The position numbers and the translations under genes are program-made. A DNA stretch of 64,000 bases from Deuterostichococcus epilithicus (lineage: Eukaryota > Chlorophyta > Trebouxiophyceae > Prasiolales > Stichococcaceae): assembly GCA_033439295.1 (NCBI GenBank), contig JAVTLE010000008.1, positions 2,170,001-2,234,000 on the forward strand, given 5' to 3'. Under the pieces are notes generated by a model that made no database searches, was not told the origin of the DNA, and worked only from the letters and a program-made list of their open reading frames with translations. Shown here in pieces: positions 8,547-57,823 of this stretch. Numbering within the stretch: position 1 is the stretch's first letter; every line of letters starts with the position of its first letter.

Positions 8547-8617
<71 letters not shown>

Positions 8618-25421: not shown

Positions 25422-28400
25422 TCAGAAGCCCATGGCGGTCTCGAATAGGTAGCTGGCCGCGCGATCCGTGTCTCCATTGCTCACCGACAGCGCCTCCAGC
25501 GCCTGCTGCCGGCTGAAGCCCAGCCCCTGCAGCTGCTGCAGCTTGGCCTCGTCCACCCCAGCAGCCGGCACAGGGCCGCCACCACCTGCTGCTGCGCCGG
25601 GCGCCGGCTGTGCCGNCGGCTGCGCTGGAGGCTGCTGCGGGCCGGCTGCCGCTGGCGCCGCCGCCGCAGGCATGGGGACGCCTGAGGCGGCGCGCGCCGC
25701 CGCGGCCGCCNCGGCCGCNGCGGCCGCGTCCGGCGCTGTGCTGCTGCTGGGTGCTGGCGGAGATGCGACCGCGCTGTCGCCTGCGCAGACGCGGCCTGTC
25801 CATCAATGCCCGCACTTGCATGCATCAATAAACCAGAGGCCCCGGGAGCGCCACAAAGACTGCCAGAGCCCAAACCACCGCAATGCTCTCACACTGCGAG
25901 AGCTTTTTCGGCGAGCTCCTCCGATGGAGTCGCGACTTGCGCGCTGCAAGCCGCACCGGAGGAGGGCACACTGGGCGGCGGGGCGCCCAGGGCGCCGCGT
26001 GCGTTTTCAGGCAGCTCGTGCGGCTGCAGGAAGGGCAGCGCCACGTCCAGGTTCGTGAACCGCAGCACATTGGCCCGCAGGTCGATGAGGCACTGGTGCC
26101 GCCGCAGCATGTCGAGGCCGAAGAGGAAGGGCATGTCGTCGTTGTCCATGACCGTGAGCTGTGTGGCGAGGAACTCGCCGCCGACTTTCATCATGGCCTG
26201 CGAGTTGTTTGGGAGGAGTTGAGGGGGACTGGATGCCCAGGCCGAATGGGACATGCATGCCGCCGCTGTTCAAGCAGGTCGCCAAGTTCTCGCCGCGGCT
26301 CTCATCATTGCCTGCAATATCAGGAAGGCAGCAACATCAGGAGGACGCTGCGTCAGGAAGGCAGCGATATCAGGAAGAGGCTGCGCCAGTAGCCAGGTAC
26401 TCGCCACCCACCTCCATGCCGGTCTGCATTGCATTCAAGGTAGTTTTTGAAAATGATGGCGTGTATGCCAGGGCTGTTGTGATGGCGCCAGCATGCAGGC
26501 GGCCCCAAAAGCTGTGACCACAGGCAGCCTCGAACTGCAGCGCTGAGAGCAGCACAGTCTCAGAGGCAAGCGGGGGCTGTGGCCAGAGTCATGCAAGCCC
26601 TCCCCGTTGCATGCGCCGCAGCACTCCTTAACCCGGCTGCCTTCGGGCCGCCCATCACGGCACAGCAGGCTGAGGTGCGCTTCCAGTAAGCCTTTGAAAT
26701 TGCAAAAGTACAGATCATTATCCAACAGAGTCACTGGGTGGATGCAGAGCCGACGATTATGAGAATCTCCAGTGCCGACGCCCTGGGCACTGGGCGACGC
26801 CCACGAAGCAGCCGTTCCTGGAGAAGAACACGCCACCACGACTGGTACCGTGCATCCAGACTGGAGGGTTAAGAGTATAGGGTGCCGCCAGCCCCGGCCC
26901 ACCTGGTGGATGCGGCCGACGAACTTGCCGGTGCCGACGCCCTTGGCGACGCCCGCGAAGCGGCGGTCGATCAGGTGCGACAGCCCCAGCCGCTCCGCGG
27001 TGCCCGCCCCCACGATGGTCATCTGCGCCCCTGAGTCCACGAACGCCGCCACCGCCTGCCGGTTGATCTCCAGGTTGACGTACAGCATGTCCACGTGCAC
27101 AAACACCTGTGGAAGCAGGAAGCAGGGCGCGGCGTCGGCGGTCGGAGCTCACAGACGCGATTCATTATCTGCCGGGCTCGATTCCCTCCAGCGTTGACTT
27201 GCAGCATGTCCACACGGGCGAACGCCTGCGCGCCAGATGCCCGGCACTCGGAGTCGACATTCGCTGATGTGCATGCTGGGCTCGCTCGGTTGATCTCCAG
27301 GCTTCCATGCAGATGTTCAGTCGGACGAACACCTGATCTGCGCACGCACGCGCAGGGATGGTTGCTTGCAGGGTCATATCTGGACGGCTTGTGGGCTCGT
27401 GGGTCTGCTCTGGCTGCTCACGCGTTGCGTTCTCCATCAGCCTGTCCACGCCTGGCCGATGTGCTCCTCACAGCGCAGCAGTGCTGAGGAAGGCACCCGA
27501 AGCTTGCGGCGCATACCCAGCAGCCTGCAGGATGCGCTGCCTCGACAGCCTCCTCAATCAACAGCTCCTGTTGGACTTCCGCAGAGAAGTGCCTGGCCAT
27601 GGGCAGGCGCCGCCGCCGCCCATTCCGAGGTCGCGCTAGTGAGCTATTCGTGATTGTGCGCCGCACGCTCCTGCGCGGCGCCTGAAAAGATGGGTCGCCC
27701 CAGGCAGCCTGATCCACCATGATGGCCCATCTCGGCACTGTGCCCCGAGGCCTGCCTGTATGCAGGGCCGGGTTGTCCTGGTCATCCCTTGACAACGTTC
27801 CTCCGCCCCCCTCCCTCACCTCGGGGTTGTGCTCCATGGCCTGCTCGTAGTTGTGCGCGACGTGCTCCTCCGCAATGCGCGCCGCAATGCGCGCCTGCGC
27901 CTCCGGGTCGAAGGGATCCGCGTTCCACAGGTCCGCCTCCGCCTGCAGGCGGGCCGCACGGTAAGGTTTTGTCCAAGCAAGGGTCTTGCCGTTCTGGGCC
28001 TTGCGGTTCCGGAGGGCCTCTAGGACAGCCAATCTGGACTGGCACTGCTGCAAGCTAGCTGGAAGACGCAGCCTATTGCGCGTGCTCGCGCCCAGAGTGG
28101 CTCTGGGACAGCGAGAGGCATGTCTGCACCACCCCGACTGAGCCCCGCGAGTGCAGTAGCATCTTGCCCCGTCCGAGCAGCGGCATTCGTGACACACACT
28201 CACTGGAGCGCTCACCTGCCGCGCCCTTTCCGCCTCCGCCTGCCTCTGAACGTGCACCTCCTTCATCAGGGCCGCCAGCCTCGTTGCATCGCTCGCCCTG
28301 CACGGCAGGGACAACACTGCTCGCCACGGGCGCATGGCATCCAGGGCTGCTTGCAGCTGCGGCAGGCGGCATGGAGCGCTCGCCTACGCAAAATTGTGTG

Positions 28401-31127: not shown

Positions 31128-33385
31128 ATGACGCTGGGCCAGGTCGTCTCCAATGTCCTGTCAGCAGGCCTTGTGGCGGGCTGGGTGGGACTCAGGGCGT
31201 ATGAGATGTACCAGGCATACAACAGGGAGCGGCCGGTGAGCTTTGGAAGCCTCGACGCACCCCAAGCATGCGGTACGATTCCATTTCGTCTATCTGGGGC
31301 CCGGCGCGCCTGTCACACCCCGTACGCATCTGTGCCGTCCAGGAGGACACGGAATCGGACGACGAGGTGGCCTTCCTCCAGCGGCAGGAGCAGCTGCAGC
31401 GGCGTCGCCAGGCGGCCAGCGGCCCTGTCATATTCACCTACAGCAGCTCGCAGGGCGCGCAACTCATCAGTGAGTGCCAGCACTGTGGCTCGGTCTGACC
31501 GGCTTGGACCGCATCGATGTGCAAGGGCATTATTCATGCAGGCAGTATGCATGGGCATATGCCGCATCGACTCAAGTGCGCTGATGTGCACTCTAGGCGC
31601 ACATTGTGGCTCCTGAGCGACAGCATGTGTCCAGTCTAATGCTAAGCGAAGCAACAATGCGCTTGATCCTGCAGGTGGCGAAGAGCTCTTGACGGGCCCG
31701 TCGGAAAATCCCTTTGGCATCGACCTGCTGAACTTGCAGCTGGGGCTGGTGGACCGAGACTTTGACGAGTCTGACTACGAGGTAGGCAATTTGTGTTTTG
31801 TGGTTGCAGCTTTACTCCATATTACTTCATGTCAGGTTGTCGAGAATATTTGGGGTTTTATCAAGTTGCGGAATCGACAGATGCAAATGCTTGCTGAAGG
31901 CTTGACGGCGGCTGCGAAGTGCCACTGCATGGTCGCCCACAGAGGTTGTCTGTGTTTGCAGATGCTGCTGGCGCTGGACCGGGATGGCGCAGGCCGGGGG
32001 GCGCCGGTTTCAGAGGAGCAGCTGTCGGCGCTGCCGCACCACGTGTACAGCCGTGCAGGGAAGCAGGTGAGCTCAGGGATATCAGCCAGAAAACTGAAAA
32101 GCTTGCCTGATTTGTTGCGTCCTTGCTGCCTGGTCGCCCGTGGGTGCAGCCGCACCATGTCTAGAGGAGGGCGGCAGAGCAGGCGAGCTGATGCAAACAT
32201 TGAAAACATATATTTCCACTTCTTAGCTGCTGCTGCGTCGGCGGCGGTCGGCGCTGACGCATCACGCGTACAGCCGTGTGGCAAAGTGGGTGACCTGAGG
32301 AATAAACCCTGGCTGCTGCCTGGGCGCCCGTGGGTGCAGCCGCACCATGTCTAGAGGAGGGCGGCAGAGCAGGCGAGCTGATGCAAACATTGAAAACATA
32401 TATTTCCACTTCTTAGCTGCTGCTGCGTCGGCGGCGGTCGGCGCTGACGCATCACGCGTACAGCCGTGTGGCAAAGTGGGTGACCTGAGGAATAAACCCT
32501 GGCTGCTGCCTGGGCGCCAGCTAACTGGCGCGTACATTCTTGAGCGGCTGGCTCAGCAGCAGGGACGTGGAAACCTGCTGCTGCCCAGCGTCGGCCGGCG
32601 AGTGGGCCCTGTGATGGACCAACTGGCGCACCAGCTGGCTGGCAGCGGATCGTGTGGCCCGAGTGTGCAGAAGGGTGTTCATTAGCAGTGTTTGCGTATG
32701 GAGTTGGTCGCATGCCGGACTGCTGCACGGAGGTGAAGGCTCCGACGTTCAAGGCATGACTGGGGCAATCTTGCCGCTTGACAAGCACCTACGTTTGCTC
32801 TACCATCCTGTTGCCATCTGCGACAGGTGACAGCCAGCGAGAGCGCCAGCTCATACCACAGAGCGCTGCAAGAACAGTATGGCGCAAGCAGCTGCGGTGG
32901 CGGCGGTGGTGGCGGCGGCAATGTCGGCAGCGGCAGCTCGACAGGCAGTGGCGCTGGCCGTCGCGCCAATCTGGCGGCAGCAGAGGAGGAGGTGCCCACC
33001 TGCAGCATCTGCCTGGAGCAGTTTGATGAGGGCGTTCAGGTCAGGCTCCCTAAACCCTGAACCCTGTTGCGGACACGTGCATGCGCACAGTCCTGGCCTG
33101 CCCTGGCCGGGATTCTGCCTGGGAGACATTGTTGCTGGGCGCCTGCAAGCCCAACGTGGGGTTCGACAGGGCTCTCTGTGACGTGTTCAGCTGCCAGAAT
33201 TGGGATCGTTTTCGGTTGCCGTGTTGCCGCATTGGGGTAACCGCGTTATCACATCCATGCAGGTCTCCGCGCTGCCGTGCTTCCACACCTTCCATCAGGA
33301 CTGTGTTGAGCCGTGGCTGCGACAGCAGGGGCGGGCGTCGACTTGCCCCATCTGCAAGACGCCGGTGTTTGGGGGGAGTGCGTGA
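31128..33385 (+). CDS. RING-H2 protein, probable membrane-associated E3 ubiquitin ligase
   Basis: Exon 1 (31128 to about 31233) MTLGQVVSNVLSAGLVAGWV, GLRAYEMYQAYNRERP contains one likely membrane segment. Then come EDTESDDEVAFLQRQEQLQR and RRQAASGPVIFTYSSSQGAQ (about 31342-31470), GPSENPFGIDLLNLQLGLVD (about 31677-31781), and MLLALDRDGAGRG with EEQLSALPHHVYSRAGKQ (about 31963-32066). Next is a Gly/Ser-rich linker with EEEVPTCSICLEQFDEGVQ (about 32827-33040). The last exon (about 33262-33385) VSALPCFHTFHQDCVEPWLR, STCPICKTPVFGGSA-stop completes a C3H2C3 RING (CxxC..CxHxxHxxC..CPxC). RING proteins recruit E2 enzymes; the substrate is unknown. A 190-bp tandem repeat in the intron after HVYSRAGKQ copies the exon end. 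Confidence 0.85.
32131..32510 (+). repeat. Two near-identical 190-bp tandem units built from an exon-intron junction
   Basis: Units 32131-32320 and 32321-32510 are nearly identical. Each contains a degraded version (CGCTGACGCATCACGCGTACAG..) of the upstream exon end at about 32018-32068 (HVYSRAGKQ plus donor), so three copies of that junction stand in a row. The near-identity of the two units points to a recent second duplication. Confidence 0.9.
33048..33066 (+). repeat. Interstitial telomere-like motif in an intron
   Basis: CCCTAAACCCTGAACCCTG lies just inside the RING gene intron after its donor. It is one degenerate step from the plant/green-algal telomere repeat CCCTAAA. Confidence 0.7.
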
Positions 33386-34434
33386 GGCGGATACGGCAGC
33401 AGGGGCAAGCCTCACCGCGCTTCACCTCTAAGACGCCGGATTGTGACGGAATTGCGTGAAGCGGTGGCAGCGGTGTTGCAGCGAAGATTGTCGGTGCGCA
33501 TGCCGTGCCAGTGCTTCGGCAGCCGCTGCACGCTGCCACCCGTGTCTAGTATCGGCAAAGGCGACGGCGGCAAGCTGCAGCTGGTCGCCGCGAGTCTGCT
33601 CCCCTCAGACCACAGTGCAGACCAAGTCGACGAGTTGCAGGGCAGGCACCCGGTAAGCCTTTGCAAATTCAAATCGAGGACGTCGTGTTTGGACGGCATT
33701 GGAGTGGAGTCGAAGTCATTGTACAACAAACATGCGTCGAGGAGACCGACGGCTTGCTTTGAGAGCGTCCGATTGCATGCTGCTTTAGTGTAGGAAATTT
33801 CTTGCCTGATTCCGAAGTCTGTAAGCATTGCATGTAAGGTTTACAACCTTCACCAGTAGGTTTAGAACGGACAAGGCCTTACGAGCTGATACAACGAAAT
33901 TCACAATTTCTGGCTGGAACAACCATTCCTCGCTTAAACTGATTGCATACAGCCTCCTGTCGGACAGATCAGATGCGGTTGCACATCGAGCTGACAGCGG
34001 CCTGGCCTCTCACAACCGACCTAACATCTCGGATACCTCATTTGAGGAAGTCTCTGTCCACTAGTCTTGGGTGTGCACGGTCGCGACAGTGTTCGCATCC
34101 CTCTTGTGGCCCCAGCATGGACAGGTGCCTGCAGCTCAGTCAGCGAGGCGTGAACGTCCGTAGTACGCCTCTACGACGGCTGCAGGTCTGACCACTGCCA
34201 CAGCTGCATTCCTGGACTTGCTTGGCCACTCGAGGGGATGAGCGAGATACAGTCCAGATACACAAACACCTGCATCTCTCAGGTGCAGCCATTCGCCACC
34301 AGGCGCCCGTCGCTTGTACCTGCTGCCCAGTTCAGCGACAGCCTACGGAAGCCGCACAGGTGTGCATGTGCGCACTGTGCCACAGCCTGGTGGAGCTGCG
34401 GCTGCACACCAGCTGCGTCGCCGCCCAGAATTTG
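33386..34434. other. Intergenic
   Basis: About 1 kb between the RING gene and IspF. The stretch 33443-33655 reads protein-like up to a GTAAGC (LQLVAASLLPSDHSADQVDE) but matches no family I know and could be 3' UTR or an alternative terminal exon. Nothing else was recognised. Confidence 0.4.
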
Positions 34435-35977
34435 ATGAATGCCGATGCTTGCACACACGATCTGTGCAGATGCTTTCAACATGCCTTGAGGCATCGTAGT
34501 GCTGCGTGCAGCAGGCATTCACAGCCGCAAGCCTCCAGCAGCCTTGTGCTGGGCACTGTCAGGCAGCAACGCGGGCCTGCGGCGCCAGCGGCCATGAAGG
34601 CAGAAGATGTGCCGGCGCCGCCGGATGTACCAGCGCCGCAGCTGCCCTTCCGTGTGGGCCACGGCTTCGACTTGCATCGCCTGGAGGAGGGGTGCGGCGC
34701 TGCTGCTGCTGCTGCTGCTGCTGGATGTAAAACAGCGGCGCAGATGCAACCTGCTCGTCAGCCTTCTGTCCTGGCTGCGTGCACCGGCACATCTGACACA
34801 CCTCGGCCAGGAAACATGATTCAGGAGTCGCTGGAGCCATGTCACACATCGCTGGCGTTGTGCCAGCACCGCACGTTTTCCTATCCTGCCGGCGATACCA
34901 AGCCCCGCGGCGCCTCCCTGCCACGGCACACAGGTACCCGCTCATCATCGGCGGCGTCGACGTGCCGCACACGCGCGGCTGCGTCGCGCACTCAGACGGC
35001 GACGTGCTGCTGCACTGCATCACGGACGCGCTGCTGGGCGCGCTCTGCCTGCCGGACATTGGGCAGTTGTTTCCGGACAATGACCCGAAGTGGAAGGTGA
35101 GTCACATGATTTCAGCATTGAAACGAAGGCAATTGGCTGACAGCTGGTGAAAGGCGTGACTAGCTGGCGGCGGCCACGTGCGCGGCGGGAGGTGGCAATG
35201 CGGTCGTTGCAAATAGTCCGGCGCACGCCTGGTAGGTCGTCCTGGCTGCGTGCAGACTCCATAGCCGGGCGGCAGGCAGCGCGGCTCGACGGACTGGTTA
35301 TTAGCGGGCAGGCTGTTGACGGCGCAGGGCTGCAACTCGGACGTGTTTGTGCGGGAGGCGATGCGGCTAATGAAGGAGCGCGGCTACTCGCTCGGCAACC
35401 TGGACGCCACCATCATTGCAGAGGTGGGATGTTAAAATGGACCGCAACATTGACGGGCATCTGGGGCAAGGGTTGCATGGCAGGCAACCTGGACACCACC
35501 ATCTCGCCGAGGCGGGAAAATTCTGCCAACGAACAGTTGCAGCGGTCGATGGGTAGTCAGAGATGACGAACATTAGAAAAATGATCAGAAACGTGTCAGC
35601 CGGGTGATATGTGTGCTGCCGTTGCTGACGTGGTCGAGGCGGCCGCGTTCTGAGGACAAGTTTGCCAGAGACTTGGTGGCAGCCGCCCTGCAGCTTGGTG
35701 CAAATGAGATCCTGCAATGGCGCAGGCCATTCATCATGCGCCGCTTAGGAATACAACAGCCTCAACGACATGCAAACCCTGCGCATGCTGTGCTGCCTCG
35801 CAGCGGCCGAAGCTGTCGCCGGTGAAGGACCAGATCCGGGACAACCTGTGTGGGCTGCTGGAGGCGCACCCATCTGTCATCAACCTGAAGGCGAAAACGC
35901 ACGAGAAAGTGGACAGCCTGGGCGAGAACCGCAGCATCGCCTGCCACACCGTGGTGCTGCTCTTACGGGACACGTGA
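34435..35977 (+). CDS. IspF: IspF, 2-C-methyl-D-erythritol 2,4-cyclodiphosphate synthase (plastid)
   Basis: MEP-pathway enzyme converting CDP-ME 2-phosphate to MEcPP with release of CMP; it feeds plastid isoprenoids including the phylloquinone side chain. Exon 1 ends at 34691: an Arg/Ser/Ala-rich leader, then [16 protein letters not shown] with metal ligands D-x-H. Exon 2 (34934-35096): [20 protein letters not shown] with the conserved His, [34 protein letters not shown]. Exon 3 (35328-35423, exactly 32 codons): [20 protein letters not shown] and [12 protein letters not shown]. Exon 4 (35804-35977): [40 protein letters not shown], ending LLLRDT-stop. All core motifs are present. The start at 34435 gives a plausible transit peptide; 34594 (MKAEDV) and more distal in-frame ATGs are alternatives. 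Confidence 0.95.
34699..34722 (+). repeat. (GCT)8 microsatellite in IspF intron 1
   Basis: Eight GCT units begin 7 bases after the exon 1 donor. They lie outside the coding exons. Confidence 0.9.
35178..35516 (+). repeat. Decayed copies of IspF exon 3 edges in both flanking introns
   Basis: Intron 2 (about 35178-35210) holds a degraded copy of the exon 3 stretch coding VFVREAMRL (intact about 35342-35375). Intron 3 (35483-35516) holds a copy of the exon 3 end GNLDATI, reading GNLDTTI and running through the donor region (intact 35394-35430; offset 89 bp). Confidence 0.75.
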
Positions 35978-36461: not shown

Positions 36462-39400
36462 TCACATCCATGCCGTCTGCTTCAGCGACTGGTACACCGC
36501 CTGGGCATTGCACAGTCGAAAGAGAGTCAGACAGCACAAGGAATGGCGGAGGGAGGAGGGCGCTGGAATTGCAAGCTGCAGAACAGCAGCGCGCAAATCG
36601 AGAGTGCCGTTTGTGCAGGGGACTCATTGCGGAACAACAGGAAACAGAGACAAGCATACAGAAAGCAGGAGAGCACACCTTGACCTGGGTATAATTCTCC
36701 AAAGCGTACCTGTTAGGTAAAAAGGGGAGGGGTCAAAAGGTGTCATGGAACCCTGCTCATGCTTGGAAAGCAGGCTGCGCCATGGGCCTCTGCTAGAAGT
36801 TAAGGAGCTGGCAGCGTCATGTGGGGGAGGGGGGTAAAGAGAGCGTACTCGCCCTTGTCGCGGCCGACGCCTGACAGCTTGTAGCCGCCGAACGGCATTG
36901 CGGCCTGGCGGAGCACAGAAGAGAAGGATGCTCAGCAGCTGTTTCACTTGTAACAGGTTGCGGCAGGACTTGTGGCAGCAGGGAGACAGGAGGCAGCATC
37001 CCAAGCTGCACGTTGAAAGTTGGGCTGCAGCCGACAGAGGCTGTTCCACAAAGGCTCGTCAACGCGCTTGCAGGTGACGACTGCATCGTATCGCATCGAC
37101 AAATAGCAGGAAAGATGCAGGAGAGTGAAGGGGAGGGAGCCGCACGTCGTACACGTTGTACAGGTTCACCTGCATCAACAAATAAGCTGAAGTCAACCTC
37201 TGCTGTCAGATGCACTGCTGCACGACAGGCGGTACGGGGCGAGCAGGTTAGGCACAAGCACGTGCAGAGGCGAGAGTCGCTCACCCAGACGGTGCCGGAC
37301 TTGAGGCCGCGGGAGAGCGTGTTGACCACGTCGACGTCCTTGGCCCAGACGCCTGAATCACAAGGAACGTGTGGTGAGCAGTGAGGCCAGTGCGCAGTGA
37401 CCGGGGTGCCGTGACGCTTGTAAGCAGGCTCGTCAGGGGTGCTGGGTTGTCCACATGTTCCAGGGCCCATCTGGTGGGCTGCAAGACGCCGCACCTGAGG
37501 CAAGGCCGTACCTGCAACAGCATCCGCAAGACGATCGATAAAGCCACGGTCATGTCATAGCTAATGACAAAAAAGTAAACATTTCCAAGTCATCAATGTG
37601 AAACAAAAGGGACAATTGGAGTTTCACAGGGGAACACTCACTCATTAGCATTTGCGCGCTCCAGCACCTGACCGAGGATGCCCAAAACACAAGGTGACAC
37701 CGTGTTTTGGGCGGAAGCATGGGTGGCATGCAGTGCACATGCAGAGCCATGAAGAGCAGCACGCCGCATGCCGCAGCGCCACCTACTGATTCAGGCAAGA
37801 GAGGCGAATGCGCTGCACCTCGTCAAGGGTCTTGTACTTGAGAATTATCTGCACGTCGTGAGGCAACACAACGTTACCCAGTTGAAGTGAGATGAGCAGG
37901 TGATGTGTGGCATTGACAGCCGCCAGAGAAGAATCAGCTGTAAATGAAGAACAGAAAGCTGCTGCCAACGCAACCCTGATGCACCCCTAGTGGTGCACAC
38001 GGCTTGCCATACCTGCACAGGACCGAAAATCTCCTCCTGCGGCACAACCGTAGACATCGACATTAGAGGGCTCCAGGGTCACATAATATAGTCTGCAGCA
38101 GGCACACGCGCTCAGCTGCAGGAAGCTCGCCCAGGCGGCACCTGCGCAATCTTCATGTCGTCCTTGACGTCTGTGAAGACGGTGGGCTCGATGAAGAAGC
38201 CCTTGTCGCCCACGCGGCTGCCGCCTATGCAGTCAGTATTCTCCAGTTCCAGAATTTCTTCCAGGTTTTGCAGGGAAGCGTGTCCAAGCTTTCCCAGGTG
38301 CAAGGGCCCAGACACACTGAGAGGCTCCGCCAGGACGTGACTATGAAACCGCAACGCGCAGACAGGCCCAGGCTGGCACCGCCTCCACAGCTGCTGGCNG
38401 GGAGAGGGAGGGGGGGACACTTGAAGCATGCANNACNCAGGTGCACGGTGTGCGGCGCGAGTTTTGAGGATGAGCAGCATGAGTGTCCAGTGGCTGCACC
38501 GTGCTTGAGGGTGGCACCCTGCTCCTTGCCCGCCTGGATGTATGACATAATCTTCTGGAACTGGTCCGAGTCGATCTGCGCAGCAGAAGCCGAATGCGTC
38601 AGTGATTCCTGTGGGATTCGATTTGGAGGGTGAAGGAGAACCAGGATGTGGGTAGTCTGCATGGCCACGGTGATCCGCAGGGCCTCCACTGCTGGCCCGA
38701 GTCGGTCTGCACGACAATGCAGCCCAGGCAATGAAATTCGATCTTGCTGGGGATGAGGACACCTTGCACCTGCAGGGCCTCTGCGTGAGATGTGGGAATG
38801 CAATAATCTGGCACAGCAGACGACCAGCAGAAGGAGCAACCTGGAGGCCTGCCATGACTGGGGGCCCTGACAGAAGCCCGCGCGGAGAAGGTACTGCTGT
38901 TGTTGCCACAGCAACCAGCAGCGCACGGCCAAATTTCGCATCGTCGGTTTTGCGAAAAGTGGATCTGGGAAACGGAACAGCTGTGGCAGCAGAAATGCTG
39001 GCGGAAGCTAGGGCCTCTTGTCGAAGAGAAGCGGACGCCGAAAGTGCCGGAGCACCCCAACCGGCATCGCATGGAAAATGGCATAGCTGTGGTGTAGCAC
39101 CTGGCGGAATCTGCAAGTGCTCCAAAAGAGAAAAACTATTGCTGGCCGACAGAGCGTTCACGGCACACCTGGGGCCCCTGGTCGAAGCTCTCGGAGGAGA
39201 AGGGGTCGCCGATGGTGCGCTTGCGTGCCAGCTCCACCGTTTTGGCGACGAACTGGTCGTATATGTCTGCAGGGACCGTCGGATAGCGCAGCATTCAACA
39301 GAGGAAGGCACTCGACGTGACTGGTCACCAGTACATCCGTGATGGCACGGCGCAACCTGCTGCGGGTGTGCAGCCCCTCATGCCGATCCGAGGCCGGCGA

Positions 39401-42270: not shown

Positions 42271-42701
42271 GGTGCCCAAGCGTCCGTTAGTACTCAGAAG
42301 GGTTGACCGTGGCAATACTGCGTGGAGTTGCTGCGACTGGGACGATTGCACCTGAGGCGAAGTGAAACAATCGTCCCACGTCAGCTTTACGAATTACGAA
42401 ACTCAGGTTAGCACGAGTCCCCGAACACCGTCACTTCACTTGCAATTTTCCCAAGACTGTTGTCACGACCAATTCTCCGCTTGCTTCAGTGTTCGAAAGC
42501 CTCCAATCATCTCTGCGGAAAGACGCCACCTGTCTGAAGGTGCTTCTGTCGCCGCCAATGCATTTTGCGGCGGCAACGATAACTGCATGCATTGTCGGCA
42601 GAACTCAGACACTATTGCTGTACGTCTCGCCGCCCTACCAATAATCTGCTAGTGCTGCAGGAGGCCCTACACCATCTGACTGGCAGCAACAAGGCTTCAC
42701 G
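42271..42701. promoter_or_regulatory. Shared divergent promoter region of the two ALDH genes, with an 11-bp inverted repeat
   Basis: 431 bp separate the two start codons (42270 on -, 42702 on +), so this must hold both promoters and 5' UTRs. TGGGACGATTG (42338-42348) and its perfect inverse CAATCGTCCCA (42368-42378) form an inverted repeat with a 19-bp spacer. It could be a factor-binding palindrome or a hairpin; function is inferred only. Confidence 0.45.
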
Positions 42702-45700
42702 ATGTCGAAAGTCGACGTCAAGCAACTTTTGGAAAAGGTGCCAAAGAAGGTATGACGTGCTGTTGGCATGCTCGAAACACATCAAGAGCTGCTGCCCTGT
42801 CGTTGGCCTGCATAACATCTACTCCTGCTTGTTGATTCGGTTCTCTTATCAGCTGCCGAGGCAAGAACTTGATGCCTTGTTGCTGCAGCTGCTAATCGAT
42901 GGAGACTGGGTTGACGGCGACTCGAAGAAGACGCTGCAGACGTTCAACCCCTACAACGAGAGCCTGTTGGCAGAGGTATGGCGACTTTCCACCTGGGCAC
43001 CAGAAAAATAGGCTGCGCGCGCCACCATAGACCAGCCGCAGAGAGGTTGCCCACCGCACACACGCTTGTGCGCCGGCCATGATTTTGGGATTCAGCACGA
43101 CCAGCAATAGAAACTCGGGTTCTGCGTGTTGATGTTTACAGGTGGCTGAAGCCGACGTCTCGGACGTCGACAAGGCCGTCAAGGCCGCACGCAAGGCCTT
43201 CGACGAGGGCCCCTGGCCACGCATGTGAGACTCCTGCATCACTGCAAATTGCCGTGCTGCGAATGTCCTGATGGTGCCAAGAAATTGTTGTAGATACATA
43301 CTGAAAAGGTCTTCTGAGCATTGATGATGTGTACAGGACTGGCAAGGTGCGGCAGTGCCTCTGGAGTTGATGCGCCACCAAGAGTTGTTCTGAAAGTGAC
43401 GCCTGAGCGCGTTGTTGCTGTGCTGGAATGTCCTGTCAAAGAAAGACAGTAGTAGTATATATACACTGGTATTTCGCCACGACTTCACGAATCACTGCCC
43501 CATTTGCTGCAGGAGCGGGCGCGCATCATGGGCAAATTCACGGTGCGCGCTAAACTAAAAAAATCTGCTGCACACAATGCAAAATCAATTTGACGATGAA
43601 GGCCGCTGACATCTGTTGGGGGCGTCCTTGCATCACCTGTCCAACAGTGCCCCTCGCACCTGTTTCCAGTAAGAGCCAGTGTGCATCAGGGTGCTGGGCA
43701 CTAGGCCACTGTGCAAGAGTGAGCTGTGACATTGGTGAGTCGCAGAAACTTTGGGAGGACAACCTCGAGGAGCTCGCCTACCTGGAGGCCATGGTACGCA
43801 AGAAAATTGACCCTCAAGACCAGATGCTACCCTTGTGCATATTCGTCTCAAATCTCACACTAGTCACCTTGCCGCATGACTTGGCTAGCGTCTTGCGCGG
43901 CTCTACGTGGCGCTACATTTCCATGTAGATCCGTTCGCAGCCACCTGCTCGTCTCCTCTCTGCTGCGAGTGGCTCCGAAAATCCGGCTGCAAACCCAGAT
44001 GTCGACACCTCATCGTGTGCAACAACGCTGCAGCGAAGCAAAACATGCGAGCGTCTGCTTGGCTGTCTGCTGGGCGCAGGACTCGGGCAAGCCCATCAAG
44101 CAGGCGCGCGAGGTGGACGTCCCATGGTCCATCGACCACATGTGGTACTTCACGGTGCGCTCCCCGCTGCGCGCCACACTCCTCACGAGCAGCCGCGCAT
44201 ATTCCTGCACCTGCGCGGCACCTGCAGGAGAACCTTTGATTCCTCAGTACCCGGAGCATTGCGAATCGCTGGTCGTGCTTTGCGGCACAGGGCTGTGCGT
44301 CAGCCTGGAAGGACAACGACGGATGGTGTCTTGCTGGATTCTGCCAGCACGTCCTGCCATGTATGCTTCATCATTCCTGCAGGGCTTTGCGGACAAGGCG
44401 CTCACTGGCAGGACGATCCCATGCGGCCTCGACAAGCTGTTCGGGTGCGACTCTCTAGAAAGGAGGCGATACCTAATGAATGCTGCAGCTGCCAATCTGG
44501 TTCAGAAGGAGCAGAGTGACTTTCAGAGGGGCCCACCCAGGAAATGCTTTCCGCCATCTGCGCTGCACTGACCGCAGGTACACTCTGCACGAGCCCATTG
44601 GCGTGGCCGGCCAGATTAGTGCGTTGCTTACATCAGCATCATCACTCTCTTATTTCTGCAAGCCTGCCTGAAGCGTGCTGATGGCACGACTCACACGGCG
44701 AACAGACATATGTGCGGCTGACACAGTGATCTTCTGTGCAGTCCCGTGGAATTTCCCCCAGCTGATGGCAAGGTACTGCCTGCCCACAGTTGCCTTGCTC
44801 ACCTGTCTGTGTCCCCCGCCAGGTCACGCATTAAGCCTGCTGCGCTGATGTACATACCCTGCTGGCTGGTAAATATATTTGTGTGCGACGTACATAGAAT
44901 GTTGACAGTCCTGACGTATAGGCTTTTCGTTATGCAGCTGGAAGTGGGGTCCGGCGCTGGCGTGCGGCAATACGGTCGTCATGAAGGCGAGCTGACCATC
45001 TCTGCCAGCTGACAGTTGCATGCAGGCCTCTCATTCCGGTGTCTTGATCTCAGCTGCATTTTGGCTGCATCAGCAGCCTGGCTATCTCAGTAGGCAGCCT
45101 TGACGTGAGACATGAATACCTGTATGTCACTGCGGCGTCGTTAAAACATTGTGTCTTTGTGCCCTAACGTGCCCGTTCAGCCCTGCTGTCACCAAAGGTC
45201 AAGTCTGAGACTCCGCTACCAGCACTGTGGTGCCTCGGCCAAAGGAGGCTGACAGGCACACCCTGTGTCCATATAACCCTGACCACAGTGTCTCATCCTC
45301 TCTCTGTCTCGCAGGTGGCGTCTGAGACGCCGCTATCGGCGCTGTATCTGGGCCGGCTGGCAATCGAGGCGGGCATCCCACCCGGAGTGCTCAACATCAT
45401 CGTCGGCAAGGGCAGCGTCGTAGGCATGGCCCTCGCCAAGCACCCCGACGTCGACAAGGTAGGTGCTGGCTTTCTGCACCGAGTTTAGGTCTGTGAAGGT
45501 GATATCAACTTGTAGGTGCGCGCGGCATGCAGAGCATTTGCCGATGCGTCTGCTTGCGGCGCGTCCAATGCATGCTGTGGGCACGTGGCGATTTATTTTT
45601 ATCAGTGGCAGAGCCATGACAACAACCCTTGGAACCTCGAGATGATATCAGTAGAGGTCAAACTTCGCGATGTTTGTGCGTGCCAGATCGCATTCACTGG

Positions 45701-48700
45701 CAGCACGGAGGTGGGCAAGCTCATCGGCGAGGCGACCGCCAAGAATGTCGTGCCCACCACGCTGGAGCTGGGTGGCAAGAGCCCTGCCATCGTGTGGAAG
45801 GACTACGACCTGGACAAGGTGCCAACTTACTGAATGAGGAAGGAATTTTTGAAATGAGAGATCATGGAAGCATTCAGGGTGAATGAATGCAGGGCCTGCG
45901 TCCAGATGCCAAGTGCTGAGCGAGGAGCTGCCACAGCAGCGTCGAGATGTCAATAGATGTTGGGATGTGCGCTGTACAGTCAGCAGAGTGTTTGGAGGAC
46001 TGGTGGTTGTGGTGCAGGGCTCGCTGGGCTGAGGCAGTGATGCGTGTGCCTGCAGGCAGTGGAGGACGCGGCGATGGCCATCTTCTTCAACACAGGCCAG
46101 GCCTGCACGGCGGTGAGCCAGAACGCCGATTCACCTGCACCATGCCAGGGCACAACTGTGAATTCATCATTGTGCCACTTGCGATGCAATATACAGAAAC
46201 AGCACATGTCGATGCCCCATCTGTAGAGCGCAGTGTCGGCAGATGCGGGCAGGTGCATCAGCACTGAGGGAGGTGCTGCTTCGTGCAGGGCTCCCGCACC
46301 TTTGTGCACGAGGAGGTGTATGACAAGGCGTGTCCCAATCTGCTGTTCCTGAAACGATATTGCGCTCTGAAGCACTAGCCTTGTGTCCGTATTCCTCACA
46401 TCGTTCTGCCGCAACAACGAGCAGCCTGTGCCTGGTCTTCTCCCAGCGTGATCTGATATATAGCCGCTGATGCTGCTTGCACGCAGTTCGTGGAGAAGGC
46501 GGCGGCCAAGGCCAAGAGCCTGAAGGTCGGCGACACGATGGACCCCGACACCCAAGTTGGCGCCCAGGCATGCGCCCCCACCCAGCACTATTCCGCTGCC
46601 TCAAATGGGCAAACAGCAGTCGTGAGCACCGCAGACGCTGCTAGTCAGGCGCTCTGCAGCAGTCTGCAGTAGTCTGTGGTCTGCTGATGCACAGCATGCT
46701 GGCGGCTCATCAGCCAGATATCGACCCAGTTGGTGTGGCGCATCTGAGCCGCAAGATCGACTGGATAGCCAGCATGGGCGGCCCTCAGCTCCCTATGAGG
46801 GGGAGGGGGGGGACATGATGGCGCTCCAGGGTGTTGTTGGTGACATGGCGCTACTTTACCTCGACCAATTCTGATAAGCCTGCACCGGAACAGTCGCCTG
46901 CAACCTCCTCAGCGTGGGGGTGCAGCACCAGAGTGCACGAGTGGCGTGATGGCATGACAATGATCAATGAGCCAGTGTACCTGAGCTGTCCAGAGAGGGT
47001 CGATTCCAGGGTTTATGGGTGTGTGCCTGGCCGCAAGTCAACGAGAGGCAGCTGAAGAAGACGCCTTTCTCTCTTTTAAAGGATGGCGAGGCCCTCCCAA
47101 AACGTTGATGCAGCGGTGGACTTTCTGGCTGCAGATCAACGGGAAGCAGCTGAAGAAGACGCTGAGCTTCATCGAGAAGGGCAAGCAGCAGGGGGCGCGC
47201 CTTGTGGCTGGTGCACTGTTTTCGACAGATGTGCATGGCTGTGCGCCTGATCAACCTGTCATGCAGCTCTTGATCAATCAGTGCAGTGGCCACTTCACCA
47301 TCATGCACAGTGCACGGCTGTTGCTGGTTGTGGACGCTCCTCATCGACCAGCCTTTCCACGAGAATGGCATATAAGGGATGACGAGACTGCGGTTTGCAG
47401 GCGGCAAGCGCATTGGCGACAAGGGGTGAGCAGCTGCCAGGCCGCTTGCCTTGGACATGCTGCTGCTGCTACATCACCTCTTGCTGGGTCTCGCATGCGC
47501 CAGTGCGCAGAAGCGCAGCAATAGATGATCGTGGGAAGACATGGTCGCTTCTGACACATTCCGCAGGTACCGGGTGGAGCCCACGGTGTTTGCTGATGTC
47601 GCCGATGACATGGACATCGCCAAATTCGAAATCTTTGGGCCCGTCATGTCCATCCTGAAGTACAAGACGTTGGACGAGGTGCGGACCAGCTCTTCTCGTG
47701 CTCCGACTCGTCGTCTATTTTTCAGCTGCGTTAGGCTCTGCGTTTTGATGCACAATTTCATTCATCCCCAGGTATGGCTCGTCTCGGCAATGCTGCGAGA
47801 TTTGATGCCGTGCTGTCGCGTACTTGCCTGTACACGATGCTCGATCACCCTTGCAGCCTGAGGTCGTGTGACGCGGTGCAGGTCCTGGAAAGGGCCAACC
47901 ACAGCAACTACGGCCTCGCCTCAGGCAAGCGCGTGCCAACCGCTCGATGTGTCCTCACTGAGCATGGCGCACCATGTCTGCACAACGTGGCGGAATCTCG
48001 CCAAGTGCTCAGAGATTTCGTCTCCTGCCAAGAATAACGCTGGAGCTTGCCCTGCAGGCCTATGGTGCGCACCCACACACAGTAGGGAGGGATGCCGTGC
48101 ACTGGTGCTGCCTACTGTTGCACATCACGCACCCAGTGCAACATGCACAAAGATCAATTTGATGTAGCATGAAGCCCCTTGATTGCGATCATGCTTCCGG
48201 CGCAGGGCCAAAGACATCGATGTGGTCAACACTGTGACGCGCAGCCTCAAGGCCGGTGAGCACGACTCGCGTTCATCGCAACTCTTGTCCCATGTCACCT
48301 CCATCTTGCTGAGCCCTGTAAGTTTCTGACATGCTTGCATCGCAGGCAGCGTGTGGGTCAACTGGTGGGTACATGACCTATCTTGCTGGTGCACACGCAA
48401 CACAGCACATCTCAAGCCTTCGGCGCACCAGCAGGGACTGATTCACATCCATTCTTCCGTGGCGTTTCTGCAGCTACAACCTGCTGGACAGGTTGGAAGA
48501 GTTTGACCTCGACACCTAGTTGCCATGCTTCCGCTGCCAGTCGTCACTGCCGTTAAAATTGCCCTCTCGAGCTGGAGGACTCACAACCAGCATGCATTGC
48601 TCCCTTTCACCAGTCGCTAACAAACATGTGTGATCATCAACAGCCGGATGCCATTCGGAGGTGCCGCCTCCCTCTGCCCTCGTGTTTGTTGCTTGAGCTG

Positions 48701-50591: not shown

Positions 50592-53500
50592 ATGGCAGAC
50601 GACGAGAGCCTGCCCTCCGCGGGAGAGGCGGCGCTCGACGACGGTTCCGATGCGAACATGCTGCCTGCTAGCGAAGCGACGCTGCTCGACGAGGAGCGTG
50701 CAAAGCATGCACGCAGGTGCGTCGGCATCACATTCCTGCTGTGGCATGCGATATGCATGCTGTGTGGATCGCGTAGACAAGCTCACACGGTGTATGTCCA
50801 CTGTCCATTCAACGAAGGAGAATGCATTGCAGGGCGGAGAAGTTTGGCGTTGAGTACCGGGAGCCGGAGCGGCGGCGCGACCTGCGGCATGTGGCCCGGA
50901 AGGAGAAGGCGCTCGAGCGGGCTGCAGAGCGCCCTGCCGCCTTCAACCCCGGCATGGACATCTTCTCCGAGGTTTACTACTGGGCGGATTGACAAGATGT
51001 GTGCATTGTGAAGTGCAAAAGGCGGGGAGGGTTGCATTGCAGTAAGACCGTCGCTCTGATGGCTTGTTGCAAAATAACTCACCCATGCCCCGGACTTGCT
51101 TACCCGAAAGGCCATGACCTCAGCCGACACCTGCAGAGGGAGATCCACCAGCGGCTCGAGCCGGCACCTCAAGCGCTGTACATCTATTGCCCAGTTGCCG
51201 CACCCTGTATCCTCCATCTCAACCCTGCGACGATGCTCATGCGCAGGAGGAGATCAAGCGGCTGCAAGGGTGTCAGCGGCGATGCCCAACGGCCGACATC
51301 CTCTCCATGTATTATTTTGGTTTGTCTGCCAATCCGCAATGCATCTGATCGACGATTCTGCTGCACAGGAGGAAACCCAGTGGCGGCGTGAGCGGCGGGT
51401 CAGTGCCTGTCCCGTGGACCTGTTGTGGTTTCAAACTTCGAAATCAAGGTTTGAAACCAACCATCAACTGCAGGAGGAGATCCAGCGGCGGCGGGAGCGG
51501 GCACAGCGCTTCCAGACGGCGGACAGCTTGGCGTCCTACCAGCCAGTGGTGGACCCGGCGGACATCGCAAAGCGCAAGAAGCGCGCGGAAAAGTTTGGCA
51601 TCGAGTACCAGCCGGAGGATGCAGCAGGGCTGATGGATGTCGGTGAACAGAAACAGATGTGTCCTTGCACATGAAAGGAGACCGAGTGGTTTTGCCGGCA
51701 TCTCCGTGCAGCCAGGACCTCCGTGCAGCTGTCAGCGTGGCTGTGGCGCCTGTTGTGCGGCATATAGGTAGTCAAGGCAGTTCGCAGGGTTTATAAAAAA
51801 TACATAGTATTTTTCCAAACCTTATACGTCTGTATGTCTGTGACTGCTTGTGCAGCGCCCCACAGACGTGCTGGAGATGATTGGGGAGGTGCGGGCTCGG
51901 CGAGAATGCAAATCCCTGGTGTCGCAGCAGAGTTCAGACGACGAGGGAGCTCTCCTCTTGGCGCTGCTTCAGACCTACGAAAACCAGGGCGGGGGGTGCC
52001 GGCGGAGGCTGCGCAGCGGTGGGAGGCCATCCATCAAGATCTGAGAGCAGTGACCCGTGCTGCCACAGACCTGCTGGAGACGAAGCGGGAGGTGGCAGCG
52101 GAGGCAGCGCGGCGGCGGGAGGCCATCCACCTGTACGGCGTGGATCTGCTGAACACCAAGGAGGTGGGGTTTTGGAGATCCAGGGCTGGTCCAGGGTGCA
52201 TGACAATGCGCGAGGCAGTGGGGAGCTGGGGAGGGATTTGGGGAGCGCCTGCAGGGGGCAGGATCCATGCCGCCGGCGGCACGGAGCGAGCAGATGGCAT
52301 CCCCGTCCTGAGTCTGTCGGGCTTTGTGGCCGCCCTTTGGGGCGTGGCTGGCATGTCAGCATTCCATGCGCAATGTGGCATATCAGCCGCACCCAATCGC
52401 TGCCGCCTGACAATGTGCACTCCTATTGCCCAACTCCTGGCTCCACCTGTCTGCAGGTCCTGTCCTACTTTGGCGAGTACTCGCCGGTTTATGTGGAGTG
52501 GCTGGACGACTCGTCGTGCAATATCTTGTTCCGGGACGAGTTCACCGCCAAGCGCGCAATCTTCGGCCTTGGCAAGCCGCTGCCGCCAGAGGACATCCCC
52601 GAGGGCCAGGGTGCGATGCTGATCGACGCCTTTCCATCGACATCCTTTCCTACCAGTCGTGACGGCCACCAACATCTTCTGGGAATGAAGTTGCACAAAC
52701 CCGTGCATGCAGCCTCCATGCCCAGCGCTCAGCGCAGCCACTGAGCTGGCATACGGCAGGCGCAACCCACTGCAGCTGCAGAAAGCTGCTCTGCACAAAG
52801 TGCTGCGCAGTCACCTGACGAGAGGTCGGCATTTGTACTGCACGCATATCGCTGAACCTGATCAATATCGCTTTGGCCGTCCGCAGAGCAAGCGGTGCTA
52901 GACGTGACGCAGCTGGAGAAGCTGTGGCACAAGGGTCCAGACTTTGACAAGGCCGGCGCCCAGATACCCCTCATCTTCCGGGTAGCGACCGTCGAGGATA
53001 AGCGGCCGGCGCCGGGCACGCACACCACGCGGCGCCTGTGGCAGAACTCGGCAGCGAAGGTACGGGCCGGCAATGTCGCCCAGCCTTGCTGCATGCAGCT
53101 CCACCTGCATGACTCGCTTTCGATGGCCCTACCGGCTTTATGAAGGGCAGGGGTGCACGGCGGCTGCCAGCTACGCAGCGTACCCTGCCGGTCAGTGGCC
53201 TGCAGAGATGCCATATCGTCCGGAGTGACGCTCGGCGCCTGGCATGCTCAACATCTGTGGCGGGGCGGGCTTTGCCGAGGCAGCTATGGCGGATACCGTC
53301 AGCTGCAAGTCAAGAGGAGGAGCACGAATGGGTTCAGCGCTGCCACCACTGAGCGACTCCTGGTTGCAGAGCAGAGCAATAGAGCCAAGTTCCGACCAGC
53401 TGCCATGGCTGCCGCAGGGCGAGCGGCAACAGCGGCCGCCGCGGGCGCCGCGCGGGGGCGGCGACCCGCGGCTGCACCCCATCGCGGAGGACGAGGAAGG

Positions 53501-54912: not shown

Positions 54913-57823
54913 ATGGCTCAAGCTCCCAAGGTTCGCTGATGGGAAGTGGTGGCGCACCGGCGCTCTCGTGGTGTGTGCTGTGTTGCGTACCTGTTATTTG
55001 ATCTTCAACGCACCCATACCAATTGCATGACAACCCGCCACAGGCTAAGGATCCGATCCGAGCGATAGCAGACGAGCTACGCGGGCGCCATGGTATCGAG
55101 ACGCGCGCCGGCGTGCAGGACTCTGAGCGAGTCGAGTACTTCAGGTGCTTGAATTATCCGGGGCTATTCATAGTTCAACACACCACTGGGCAGTCCAATC
55201 GAGCAAACGCAACAGTGTAGATCCACACATGGCGGTGGTCGTTCAGGGGCAAAGACTTTGCGGCCTTCTTCAGGAAGCACCCCGACAAGATCATGCAGGG
55301 CATCCTGCCCAGCGGTGCGGCCCTCTCCTGCTGGCCTGCGACTTTTGCAAACACAGTGCATGTATGCATGGGCCCACCGCAATGCCCTGCTTGCTGTGCA
55401 AGGTTGCGTCAGGCCCGCCCTGGCAGGAAAGTCGCCCTGGAAACTGCAAGTATGTTGTTCAATGTCGCAGGCTGGAAAGAGGAGGACGGCATCCGGGAGA
55501 TGCTGCACCTGCTGATGCGGCGGCGGCTGGTGACGCGCACGGAGCGGCTGTACAAAAAGCCCAAGCCGGGCAAGAAGCGCCTCACCAAGTGGCCGCGCAA
55601 GCTGCAGGCAGTGCCTGCGGCGGAGCAGGTGATGCGCTGCAGACTCTGCTGTGCTTGCCGATGGAACGCCAGGATGGCGCACGCCAGCGCGTTCATCAAT
55701 CCAATAGCAGACGGCGGCCGCCTGCAAGCATTCCAGCGCGCCACCTCAGGTGGCATGCAGCTGCTTGCTGGGGTGCTGATACTGGGAGCACTCGCGAAGA
55801 TACTTCAGGAGGCAACTCGAGGATCGTCCAACGCTGTTCCCTGCTTTCCCGCAGCTGCACACGCCTGCTCACCCTGGTGATTGCCGACTCTGTCAACTGG
55901 TACTCCGGGGTAGTTGCTCAGCCTGAAACCTGCTCTTGTCGGCGACCGTGCACACTGGTGACTGCTCACTCAGAACCCCTAAACTCCTACCGCAGAGGTA
56001 CTCGGAGGAGGGCTTCTATGCGTGGACGTACGACCTGCCGACGTCCCCATGGCTGCTCATCGGCTCCATCGGGCTGGCGGCCGTGGTGGTGCTGCTGTGC
56101 CTCTTCCCGCTGGCGCCCTACAAGCTTAAAATCGGCGTCGTGTACGCCAGTCTGGGCTTGGTGAGTGCCAGGCACAGTCGGACCTTCTCGTGTTCAGCTT
56201 GAAGGGAGTTTGCCTCGGTGCACCTTTTGTACAGTTTTTAGGCCAGGCGAGGGACGACAAGCTTCACTTCCTTCCCCATGCGCGCTGGGGCTCCAGCTGC
56301 TGCTGCCGGCGGCGGCGGGGGTTCTTGCGGCCACCAGGCAGCAGCAGATGGCGAGAACTGCCATCTCACGCTCTGGTCTCAGGCAAGCGCAGGCGGGACA
56401 CGGACAGGGTGCCAGAACTGTTGTCCCTGACGCAGTCGTGTCGCACCTCCGCAGGTCGGCGTTCTGTTGGGCCTGGTCCTGCTGCGGTGGGTGGTCGCCG
56501 GCGCCTCGTGGGCCGCCGCAGGGCGCGCCATCTGGTTGCTGCCCAACATGCTCAGCGAGGTGCGCGGCACCGGCAGGCGGGAAGCAGGAACGCTGCGCTT
56601 CTGCATGTAGAGCAGCCAGGATCTCGATGCTGGTCGCGCGCGCCCACTTGGCGCTGCATGGCAGTAGTGTCAGTAGCAGGCATGCTGTCTGAGTCGCTTT
56701 CGGAGCTGGGTGCTGCAGCCACCAGCTCCCGGCGCGGCGCGCACAGCTTCCTCAAACGACTCCTCGACTCCACGCGGCAGACAGCCACGAGTTAGCGTGT
56801 TTTCGAGCTGCAAGTGTCGTGTTTCCTGCGTGCAGACGGTGGGACTGGACGAGGCGTTCTGGCCGCTGTGGGAGTTGGAGGAGGTGGACGGCGACTGGTC
56901 CTGGTGGCGCTCGCATGCCTGGCAGCGACTGGTCTTCGCTGGCACCGTGGCCACCGTGGTGTGGGGCCTACAACGCGTGGCGCCCGGCACGGGTGAGGGT
57001 TGTGCACTGCAAATGTCCGCGGGGGCACATGTCGCTGCAAGGACTCGATGCAAGAGACCTGCTGATGATGTGCCATAAGTGGATTGCAGGCGAGATGGCA
57101 CAGAGGATGTCGCAAAAGATGTCGCACAGCAGCCTCAACCAGCTGCACAGAAGCCCGCATTGCGCTTCGCCCGCTGACGCATTGTGCCGAGACGATGACG
57201 ACGCCTCCATGCTCTGCAACGCCCAGGCGAGCTCACATCGGGGGCAAAGGCCACGCACGACCAGCTGCTGGAGTGGCTCAACCTGCAAGACGCGCAGTTT
57301 GGGCGCCTGGGCGCCGCCGCCGGCGGCAACGGGACGGCGGCGGACGGCGGCGCCATGGCGGCGGCCGCGCCGCCGCCGCCGCGGAAGCCCGCGACAGAGG
57401 AGCGGTCGGCGGCGGCGGCGGTGGCGGCGGCGCGGGCTGCCGCCGTGCAGCCCGCCAAGCCGCCCGAGCCTGAGGTGAGGGCCCTTATGTGAAAGCCGGC
57501 TGACCTGTCTTTCTTGTGGTCTGGCCTCCTGCCAGCACTGGATCGTCGGGCGGTCCTGTCCCAGACTCGCGGCTCTTTCGCAGGTTGCACTCGCCCCTGT
57601 CCCACTGGCTGCTCCGTCTCCATTCGCTCAGGTCATCCCGTCCTTCGAGGAGCTCGTGGACGAGGAGGCGGCGGAGGCAGCGGCGGAGGCGGAAGCAGCC
57701 GCCCGGGCGGCCGGCGGCAGCGAGGAGGAGGTGGCGCAGGCGCGCGAGGCTGCAGCTGCCGCTGTGAAAGCGCGCGCGGCAGCCGCAGAGCAGCCAGCGG
57801 CTGCCGCGGCTGACGAGCTGTGA
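54913..57823 (+). CDS. SEC62: SEC62, ER protein translocation membrane subunit
   Basis: Subunit of the Sec62/63 complex that helps post-translational import at the Sec61 channel in the ER membrane. Exon 1 (54913-54930) MAQAPK joins AKDPIRAIADELRGRHGIET and VQDSERVEYFR (to about 55144). Then come GKDFAAFFRKHPDKIMQGIL (about 55247-55310), ETASMLFNVAGWKEEDGIRE, LHLLMRRRLVTRTERLYKKP and KKRLTKWPRKLQ (about 55430-55628). Exon about 55998-56160 has EGFYAWTYDLPTSPWLLIGS plus the first membrane segment LAAVVVLLCLFPLAPYKLKI. Next is VGVLLGLVLLRWVVAG (about 56456), the second segment, then TVGLDEAFWPLWELEEVDGD, WSWWRSHAWQRLVFAG and ATVVWGLQRVAPG (about 56836-56990), and a Gly/Ala-rich region (about 57225-57474) with QLLEWLNLQDAQFGRLG. 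The last exon (about 57633-57823) starts VIPSFEELVDEEAAEA and ends in an Ala/Glu-rich tail, AADEL-stop. All hallmark Sec62 blocks are present. Confidence 0.93.
55873..56010 (+). repeat. Degraded copy of a SEC62 exon start in the preceding intron
   Basis: CTGGTGATTGCCGACTC..GGTACTCCGGGG (55875-55912) parallels CTGGTGACTGCTCACTC..GGTACTCGGAGG (55955-56007), the acceptor region and start (YSEEGF) of the next exon. Similarity is moderate. Confidence 0.55.

Follow-up and report, generated by a model that had tools for sequence, protein, structure and literature searches.

The locus analysed here is a window of 64,000 nucleotides (64 kb) of the Deuterostichococcus epilithicus genome (contig JAVTLE010000008.1), with a GC content of 61% and intron-rich genes. 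Gene models were built from the sequence alone, using an unsupervised gene finder followed by peptide hints and hand edits, and their frame is broken at several exon joins of ALDH+, ALDH- and NCBP3, all of them away from the junctions discussed below. Pfam matches support DDI1 (aspartyl protease, ubiquitin), a RING protein, IspF (YgbB), aldehyde dehydrogenase, NCBP3, Sec62 and an FMN reductase, and the large first gene, called PHYLLO here, has a match to a thiamine-pyrophosphate enzyme domain. The region 36800-49060 contains a head-to-head pair of diverged aldehyde dehydrogenase genes, one on each strand, named ALDH- and ALDH+ in this work. The NCBP3 gene has, at 50833-51642, two similar segments, AEKFGVEY and AEKFGIEY, and also a Tho1/MOS11 C-terminal match.

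Within this region, several introns contain degraded copies of the edge of an adjacent exon, in some cases as series of copies (ladders) departing from one junction. The copy-bearing introns and related repeats are the following, with offsets in nt:

26198..26902, minus strand: DDI1 intron 6, 705 nt (junction test); copies of the exon 7 start at 26243-26315 and 26389-26427 (offsets 114 and 226) and of the exon 6 end at 26732-26815 (offset 152)
27107..27819, minus strand: DDI1 intron 5, 713 nt (junction test); copies of the exon 6 start at 27169-27263 and 27287-27335 (offsets 119 and 226), of the exon 5 end at 27728-27760 and 27608-27676 (offsets 89 and 197), and a weak third copy of the exon 5 end at 27429-27484 (offset 406)
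32067..32826, plus strand: RING-gene intron 4, 760 nt (junction test); copies of the exon 4 end at 32140-32189, 32241-32304, 32330-32379 and 32431-32494 (offsets 116, 223, 306 and 413)
32124..32503, plus strand: tandem duplication of a 190-bp unit (99% identity) that includes two rungs of the RING ladder
33315..33464, plus strand: end of the RING coding sequence and its stop codon, with a tandem copy in the 3' flank, outside the introns
35424..35803, plus strand: IspF intron 3, 380 nt (junction test); copy of the exon 3 end at 35483-35517 (offset 89)
38576..39168, minus strand: ALDH- intron 11, 593 nt (junction test); copies of the exon end at 39015-39047 and 38858-38906 (offsets 171 and 312)
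44987..45314, plus strand: ALDH+ intron 10, 328 nt (junction test); copy of the exon start at 45186-45268 (offset 118)
46568..47134, plus strand: ALDH+ intron 15, 567 nt (junction test); copy of the exon start at 47027-47064 (offset 98)
50972..51473, plus strand: NCBP3 intron 2, 502 nt (junction test); ladder of copies of the exon 3 start at 51366-51395, 51243-51298 and 51121-51177 (offsets 105, 227 and 337)
51643..52068, plus strand: NCBP3 intron 3, 426 nt (junction test); copies of the exon 4 start at 51963-52033 and 51860-51891 (offsets 96 and 203)

The strong copies consist of about 26-79 nt of exon edge plus the splice site, so that they reach the junction, as the first-pass annotation of this DNA had described for most of them. 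Those on the acceptor side are found in DDI1 introns 5 and 6, ALDH+ introns 10 and 15, and NCBP3 introns 2 and 3, and those on the donor side in DDI1 introns 5 and 6, RING intron 4 and IspF intron 3. In DDI1 intron 5 ladders extend from both ends, and in NCBP3 intron 2 the CAG acceptor is intact in all three ladder copies.

The significance of these matches was evaluated with a junction test on 204 exon edges from 102 introns, each edge comprising up to 80 nt plus 10 nt across the junction, against a null of 2,000 length-matched draws from introns of other genes (p floor of 1/2001); eight introns with non-canonical borders in the ALDH models, some of them due to mistakes in the hand edits, were left out. 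Seventeen edges reach the floor against their own intron, with 0.1 expected, and the predicted excess of exon-edge matches over control introns is thus present. When the introns are reverse-complemented, two edges reach it, visibly those of PHYLLO intron 17 and of the acceptor side of RING intron 4, and when edges were compared with introns of their gene that are not adjacent to them, the own-intron score was attained in 0 of 185 cases. The 17 edges are spread over 15 introns (PHYLLO 3, ALDH+ 3, ALDH- 3, DDI1 2, NCBP3 2, IspF 1 and RING 1). An earlier version of the test, with 100-nt edges, other gap costs and 400 draws, placed 15 of 220 edges at the floor versus 1 with inverted introns, and these were divided into 11 of 106 edges in the six genes named first and 4 of 114 elsewhere. 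Among those six genes, DDI1, RING, IspF, ALDH+ and NCBP3 are upheld by the junction test, but SEC62 had to be discarded: the best matches in its intron 4 (55629..55995, plus strand) score only 13.0 and 12.5, and its 16 edges are all absent from the 24 best of the test (p up to 0.025). Beyond the genes first named, three PHYLLO and three ALDH- edges are at the floor.

A block scan (gapped alignment, score >= 20, direct and inverted, control distance of 1.2-4 kb) detects 33 direct blocks in 26-57.2 kb, versus 0 inverted ones and a mean of 0.0 at the control distance, and self-comparison of the window gives 23 direct versus 0 inverted pairs at 60-240 bp (score >= 18), the former including low-complexity pairs and pairs belonging to the 190-bp duplication. 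By the block scan, the strong short-range excess is confined to 26-57 kb. There is none in 0-26 kb (1 direct and 4 inverted blocks, with a control of 13.0 that is probably raised by kilobase-scale repeats there), and 57.8-64 kb has no blocks of any kind. An ungapped scan (24-nt windows, at least 19 matches) agrees with the strong excess in 26-57 kb and reveals a weaker one at 40-130 bp in 0-26 kb, where 10 matches have a density several-fold that found beyond 500 bp, several of them falling in exons or in low-complexity sequence. The results for PHYLLO are doubtful, since its intron 17 scores 20.5 in the inverted control versus 22.0 in direct orientation and the block scan gives no excess in that part of the window. 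The assertion that this recurrence is not due to chance stands for the genes of 26-55 kb, but its extension to a habit of the genome does not follow from the window, the excess being absent or weak elsewhere.

Chance similarity, or a shared base composition, would be most plausible for one GC-rich PHYLLO intron, which matches nearly as well when inverted; for the genes of 26-55 kb it is refuted by the other-gene, same-gene, distance and inverted controls, and as a general explanation it is extremely unlikely. A check for mobile elements, in pairs more than 16 kb apart, gave 59 direct versus 62 inverted matches at score >= 18. No introner-like family across genes stood out in this single 64-kb window, which is too small to exclude a sparse one, and the blocks of 26-57 kb match nothing at 1.2-4 kb (score >= 20).

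Leaving aside the 190-bp RING unit, the copies are about 64-87% identical to their source, and many carry indels and stop codons. Misassembly does not produce divergence of this type, and an artefact of assembly is therefore a highly improbable origin for them; the 190-bp unit, with its 99% identity, could be either such an artefact or a recent event. Its match runs 15 nt past the unit, as if it had recombined between older repeats, and the RING offsets 306 and 413 are part of it. After merging, 18 local pairs were obtained in 26-57.2 kb, 13 of which are exon-intron and three intron-intron (two of them copy-copy), the remaining two being one exon-exon pair and one between a coding end and its 3' flank, versus about 34% exon-intron and about 38% intron-intron pairs predicted by random placement. 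It has to be noted that this surplus of exon-intron pairs does not prove that junctions are preferred, given that a pair in which both copies are intronic decays at twice the rate of one with a single intronic copy.

The copies are anchored at junctions, directly oriented, adjacent to their source, similarly spaced, associated with long introns and free of coding constraint. We propose, with a probability of roughly 0.55, that they arose by recurrent local duplication spanning the junctions, the outermost splice site being kept and the inner copy decaying. In this process, direct-orientation local duplications with a displacement of typically about 90-120 nt would repeatedly span exon/intron junctions, and each of them would supply a second splice site. 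Splicing would stay on the outermost site, so that the protein would not change and the intron would gain one unit. Within the intron, the inner exon edge that had been displaced would decay together with its splice site, and repeated events at one junction would give rise to a ladder. The duplication events, their order and the site used are what we infer, the latter from conserved protein sequence and not from RNA. The proteins predicted with the outermost sites are gap-free there against homologues of solved structure: across DDI1 introns 5 and 6 against DNA damage-inducible protein 1 (PDB 4z2z), across IspF intron 3 against IspF (PDB 2pmp), and across ALDH+ introns 10 and 15 against mitochondrial aldehyde dehydrogenase (PDB 1cw3), which suggests that the outer splice sites are the working ones. 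That mutations of this type occur here is indicated by the RING gene, with its near-identical 190-bp unit in the intron and the whole-unit tandem at its stop codon (unit of 74 nt, 70% identity, homology across the whole unit).

The intronic flanks of the copies are less easily reconciled with a simple form of this process. Summed homology in them is null (121 versus a control mean of 119.6, P = 0.37, with 19 of 20 copies mapped), and homology does not extend further exon-ward either (17 copies, P = 0.94). Position by position there is some agreement, which extends for about 15 nt at donor-side copies and for about 6 nt at acceptor-side ones. Among 11 acceptor-side copies it amounts to 0.94 in the last three intron bases and 0.45 in the next three, being near background from there on, and unrelated acceptors agree to a similar degree (0.93 and 0.41); among six donor-side copies it descends from 0.78 to 0.43 over 15 bases and then to background. 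Of the four nearest copies with the least divergence, three lack homology in the intronic half, and this counts against simple neutral tandem duplication, from which such an absence is not expected. A first neutral simulation rejected the model for the sum of 17 copies, but it ignored the selection of lucky matches. In a conditioned simulation (60 accepted runs per copy, every copy modelled as acceptor-side), the neutral tandem model is compatible with seven of ten copies, in which the intronic half is expected to be hard to recognise by now, but it fails for IspF (P = 0.03), ALDH+ intron 15 (P = 0.00) and NCBP3 offset 105 (P = 0.00), with a combined P < 0.0002. One possibility is that the piece copied did not span the full displacement; the other is that the splice sites and exon edges of the copies were kept for a while through their use in splicing.

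Short templated insertions have also been considered, in which a polymerase would jump about 100 nt to an exon edge, copy 30-90 nt and return, the copies never having been in tandem and little intron being added. This possibility agrees with the limits that the copies have at both ends: each of the ten nearest ones is separated from the real junction by an unrelated spacer of 35-87 nt. However, only direct copies are seen, when template switching yields inverted ones too, no reason is provided for the anchoring at splice junctions, and the copy at the RING stop codon is tandem over its full unit; templated insertion is therefore rather doubtful.

As for the splice sites of the copies, CAG is present in nine of the 11 on the acceptor side, when free decay at 20-25% divergence would leave it, by a rough estimate, in about half, and four copy acceptors score 9.9, 9.0, 8.8 and 8.4 versus a median of 8.0 for real ones, which favours temporary retention through use in splicing. 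GT or GC is found in four of the six donor-side copies. The mismatch rates by codon position (0.171, 0.231 and 0.255, in 18 copies), together with the stops and frameshifts of several copies, indicate that these were not kept as coding sequence overall, so that retention, if it existed at all, would be limited to splicing.

A stronger version of such retention would be that the copies are present or recent alternative exons or splice sites, derived from old exon duplications, whose edges were preserved by splicing while the introns diverged. Besides the conserved CAG and the four acceptors above the real median, acceptor-side homology ends near the splice site, as expected under this alternative, and the gene finder put exons on three copies (26370-26423, with the acceptor; 51866-51888, with both sites; and 51339-51398, with the donor, as a first exon). 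Furthermore, the NCBP3 copy at offset 105 could be, as read by hand, an in-frame 30-nt exon, and one DDI1 copy, 26389-26427, has five of its seven mismatches at third codon positions. Nevertheless, the codon-position signature is unclear overall and several copies are interrupted, the solved homologues of DDI1, IspF and ALDH lack extra residues at the copy sites, and eight of the 11 copies on the acceptor side have no donor within 95 nt that reaches the 5th percentile of real donors, although five of six donor-side copies have an acceptor above the 5th percentile of real acceptors. Taken as a whole, alternative exons seem an unlikely explanation.

Returning to junction-spanning duplication, the spacing of the copies is quite uniform. 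Offsets had initially been given as about 90-190 bp, which is valid for the nearest copies in ten strong cases (89, 89, 96, 98, 105, 114, 116, 118, 119 and 152 nt), but the ladders reach out to 413 nt. Nine of these ten offsets lie within 85-125 nt, with P = 5e-6, a value that is optimistic because the ten copies were chosen out of 17 significant edges. The offsets left out are those of ALDH- intron 11 (171), ALDH- intron 16 (330), PHYLLO intron 7 (237) and PHYLLO intron 17 (97 or 264), and the set is also without ALDH+ intron 6, ALDH- intron 8 and PHYLLO intron 8; on the donor side of DDI1 intron 5 and in RING, the nearest copy differs from the best-scoring one. The main inter-copy spacings, seven in number and taken from six ladders (five introns, three genes), are 107, 107, 107, 108, 110, 112 and 122 nt, without counting RING 83 and 107, due to the 190-bp duplication, and DDI1 intron 5 209 and NCBP3 intron 3 148, which involve weak outer copies.

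Planted duplications of 50-250 nt were detected at rates of 0.74-0.86, and those of 40 nt at 0.58, background matches included. Given that units of 50-250 nt are found about equally, the step of about 110 nt is not purely an effect of detection. A filter could explain it: short units would leave two splice sites in competition, only units long enough for a complete splice-site region would survive, and long duplications would be rarer, the lower limit on unit length presumably reflecting that the outer site has to function on its own. Repeats with no splice site in them, having units of 33 nt (at 26320), 74 nt (RING stop codon) and 190 (RING intron), are of little help on this account, the first two being shorter but the third longer, and weaker pairs in 0-26 kb occur at 75, 110, 130 and more. 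A bolder alternative to the filter is a fixed mutational ruler, that is, a recurrent process of this lineage with a nearly fixed step of about 108 nt, depositing in old introns one splice-site-bearing rung per event, with rungs that may persist for some time as decoy or alternative sites, and we regard it as speculative and improbable.

Copy-bearing introns have a median length of 426 nt versus 228 nt for the rest (p = 3.7e-6), the junction test behind this comparison having used length-matched controls, and eight of the 12 introns of at least 400 nt hold copies, or seven if the doubtful PHYLLO intron 17 is not counted. Copied offsets add up to 2,059 of 4,381 nt in eight introns, the remainder having a median of 290 nt. 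Local duplication across junctions, as originally suggested, in direct orientation and with the outer site kept, is the best reading, and it would account for the growth of these introns.

It had also been suggested that this would be a route to the birth of introns, through tandem duplication of an exonic segment containing AGGT. The general process is documented elsewhere, as far as the accounts in PMC3443670 and PMC4974935 go, but here its signature (an intron 5' end resembling the downstream exon and an intron 3' end resembling the upstream one) is at the chance level, with one of 102 introns at p <= 0.02 versus 2.04 expected. Moreover, the copies derive from junctions that already existed, and ALDH+ introns 10 and 15 are at positions common to the ALDH- paralogue, according to aligned exons and borders read by hand, and are therefore older than the duplication of the ALDH genes. 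ALDH- intron 11 occupies the position of ALDH+ intron 15 and has donor-side copies of its own. Birth by this route is, then, very unlikely for the introns discussed, and the evidence suggests that small local duplications across splice sites lengthened old introns and did not create new ones. By hand reading, the ALDH+ and ALDH- genes have some introns in common and several that are private to one of them.

Duplicated segments including exon-intron borders were reportedly found in an earlier study of gene-internal duplications. Segments with such borders have been copied here too, but the ladders of common spacing, the retention of the outermost site and growth rather than creation set these introns apart; the class, gene-internal duplication across exon borders, is known, and the ladders and their common step are the unusual part. 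A close case is that set out in part of PMC4974935, where a tandem duplication crosses an intron-exon boundary and most splice signals are inherited from the parental junction, an 83-bp tandem duplication within the first intron being described as well. That case involves a new intron and an inserted exon, recent and of high identity, whereas here old introns were lengthened, the copies are decayed and no exon was inserted. The AGGT tandem genomic duplication model, as sketched in the review PMC3443670, likewise invokes a duplicated splice-site-like sequence that is reused by the spliceosome, but the intron-end signature predicted by it is the one at chance in our introns. Direct repeats at intron splice sites are also the subject of PMC11782384; those it outlines, of 4-30 bp, pair the 5' with the 3' border region, whereas the ones reported here measure about 30-90 nt, pair one border with the intron interior and recur in steps of about 110 nt. 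Ladders of this kind were not described in the literature searched by title and abstract opening, a search with subscription papers mostly outside its reach and thus weak evidence of novelty.

Long introns in compact genomes that contain no obvious inserted element have been poorly explained so far. If the pattern were genome-wide, exon edges would constitute a slow-decaying record with which intron duplications could be dated and counted, dating being feasible because only one of the two copies decays. The growth of introns could then be measured directly, apart from their gain, and splicing would be seen to tolerate several strong competing sites by using the outermost one.

Some other features of the window deserve mention. 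Two patatin-like proteins that resemble each other are predicted at 10494-13814, encoded on one strand at a distance of about 2-3 kb, with a patatin Pfam match that scores under its cut-off. GC-AG introns look frequent, C being at the second donor position in about 15% of cases in the self-trained matrix for the whole window. Finally, a perfect CAG repeat of 23 units (8547-8616) is located within a modelled intron of the large first gene.
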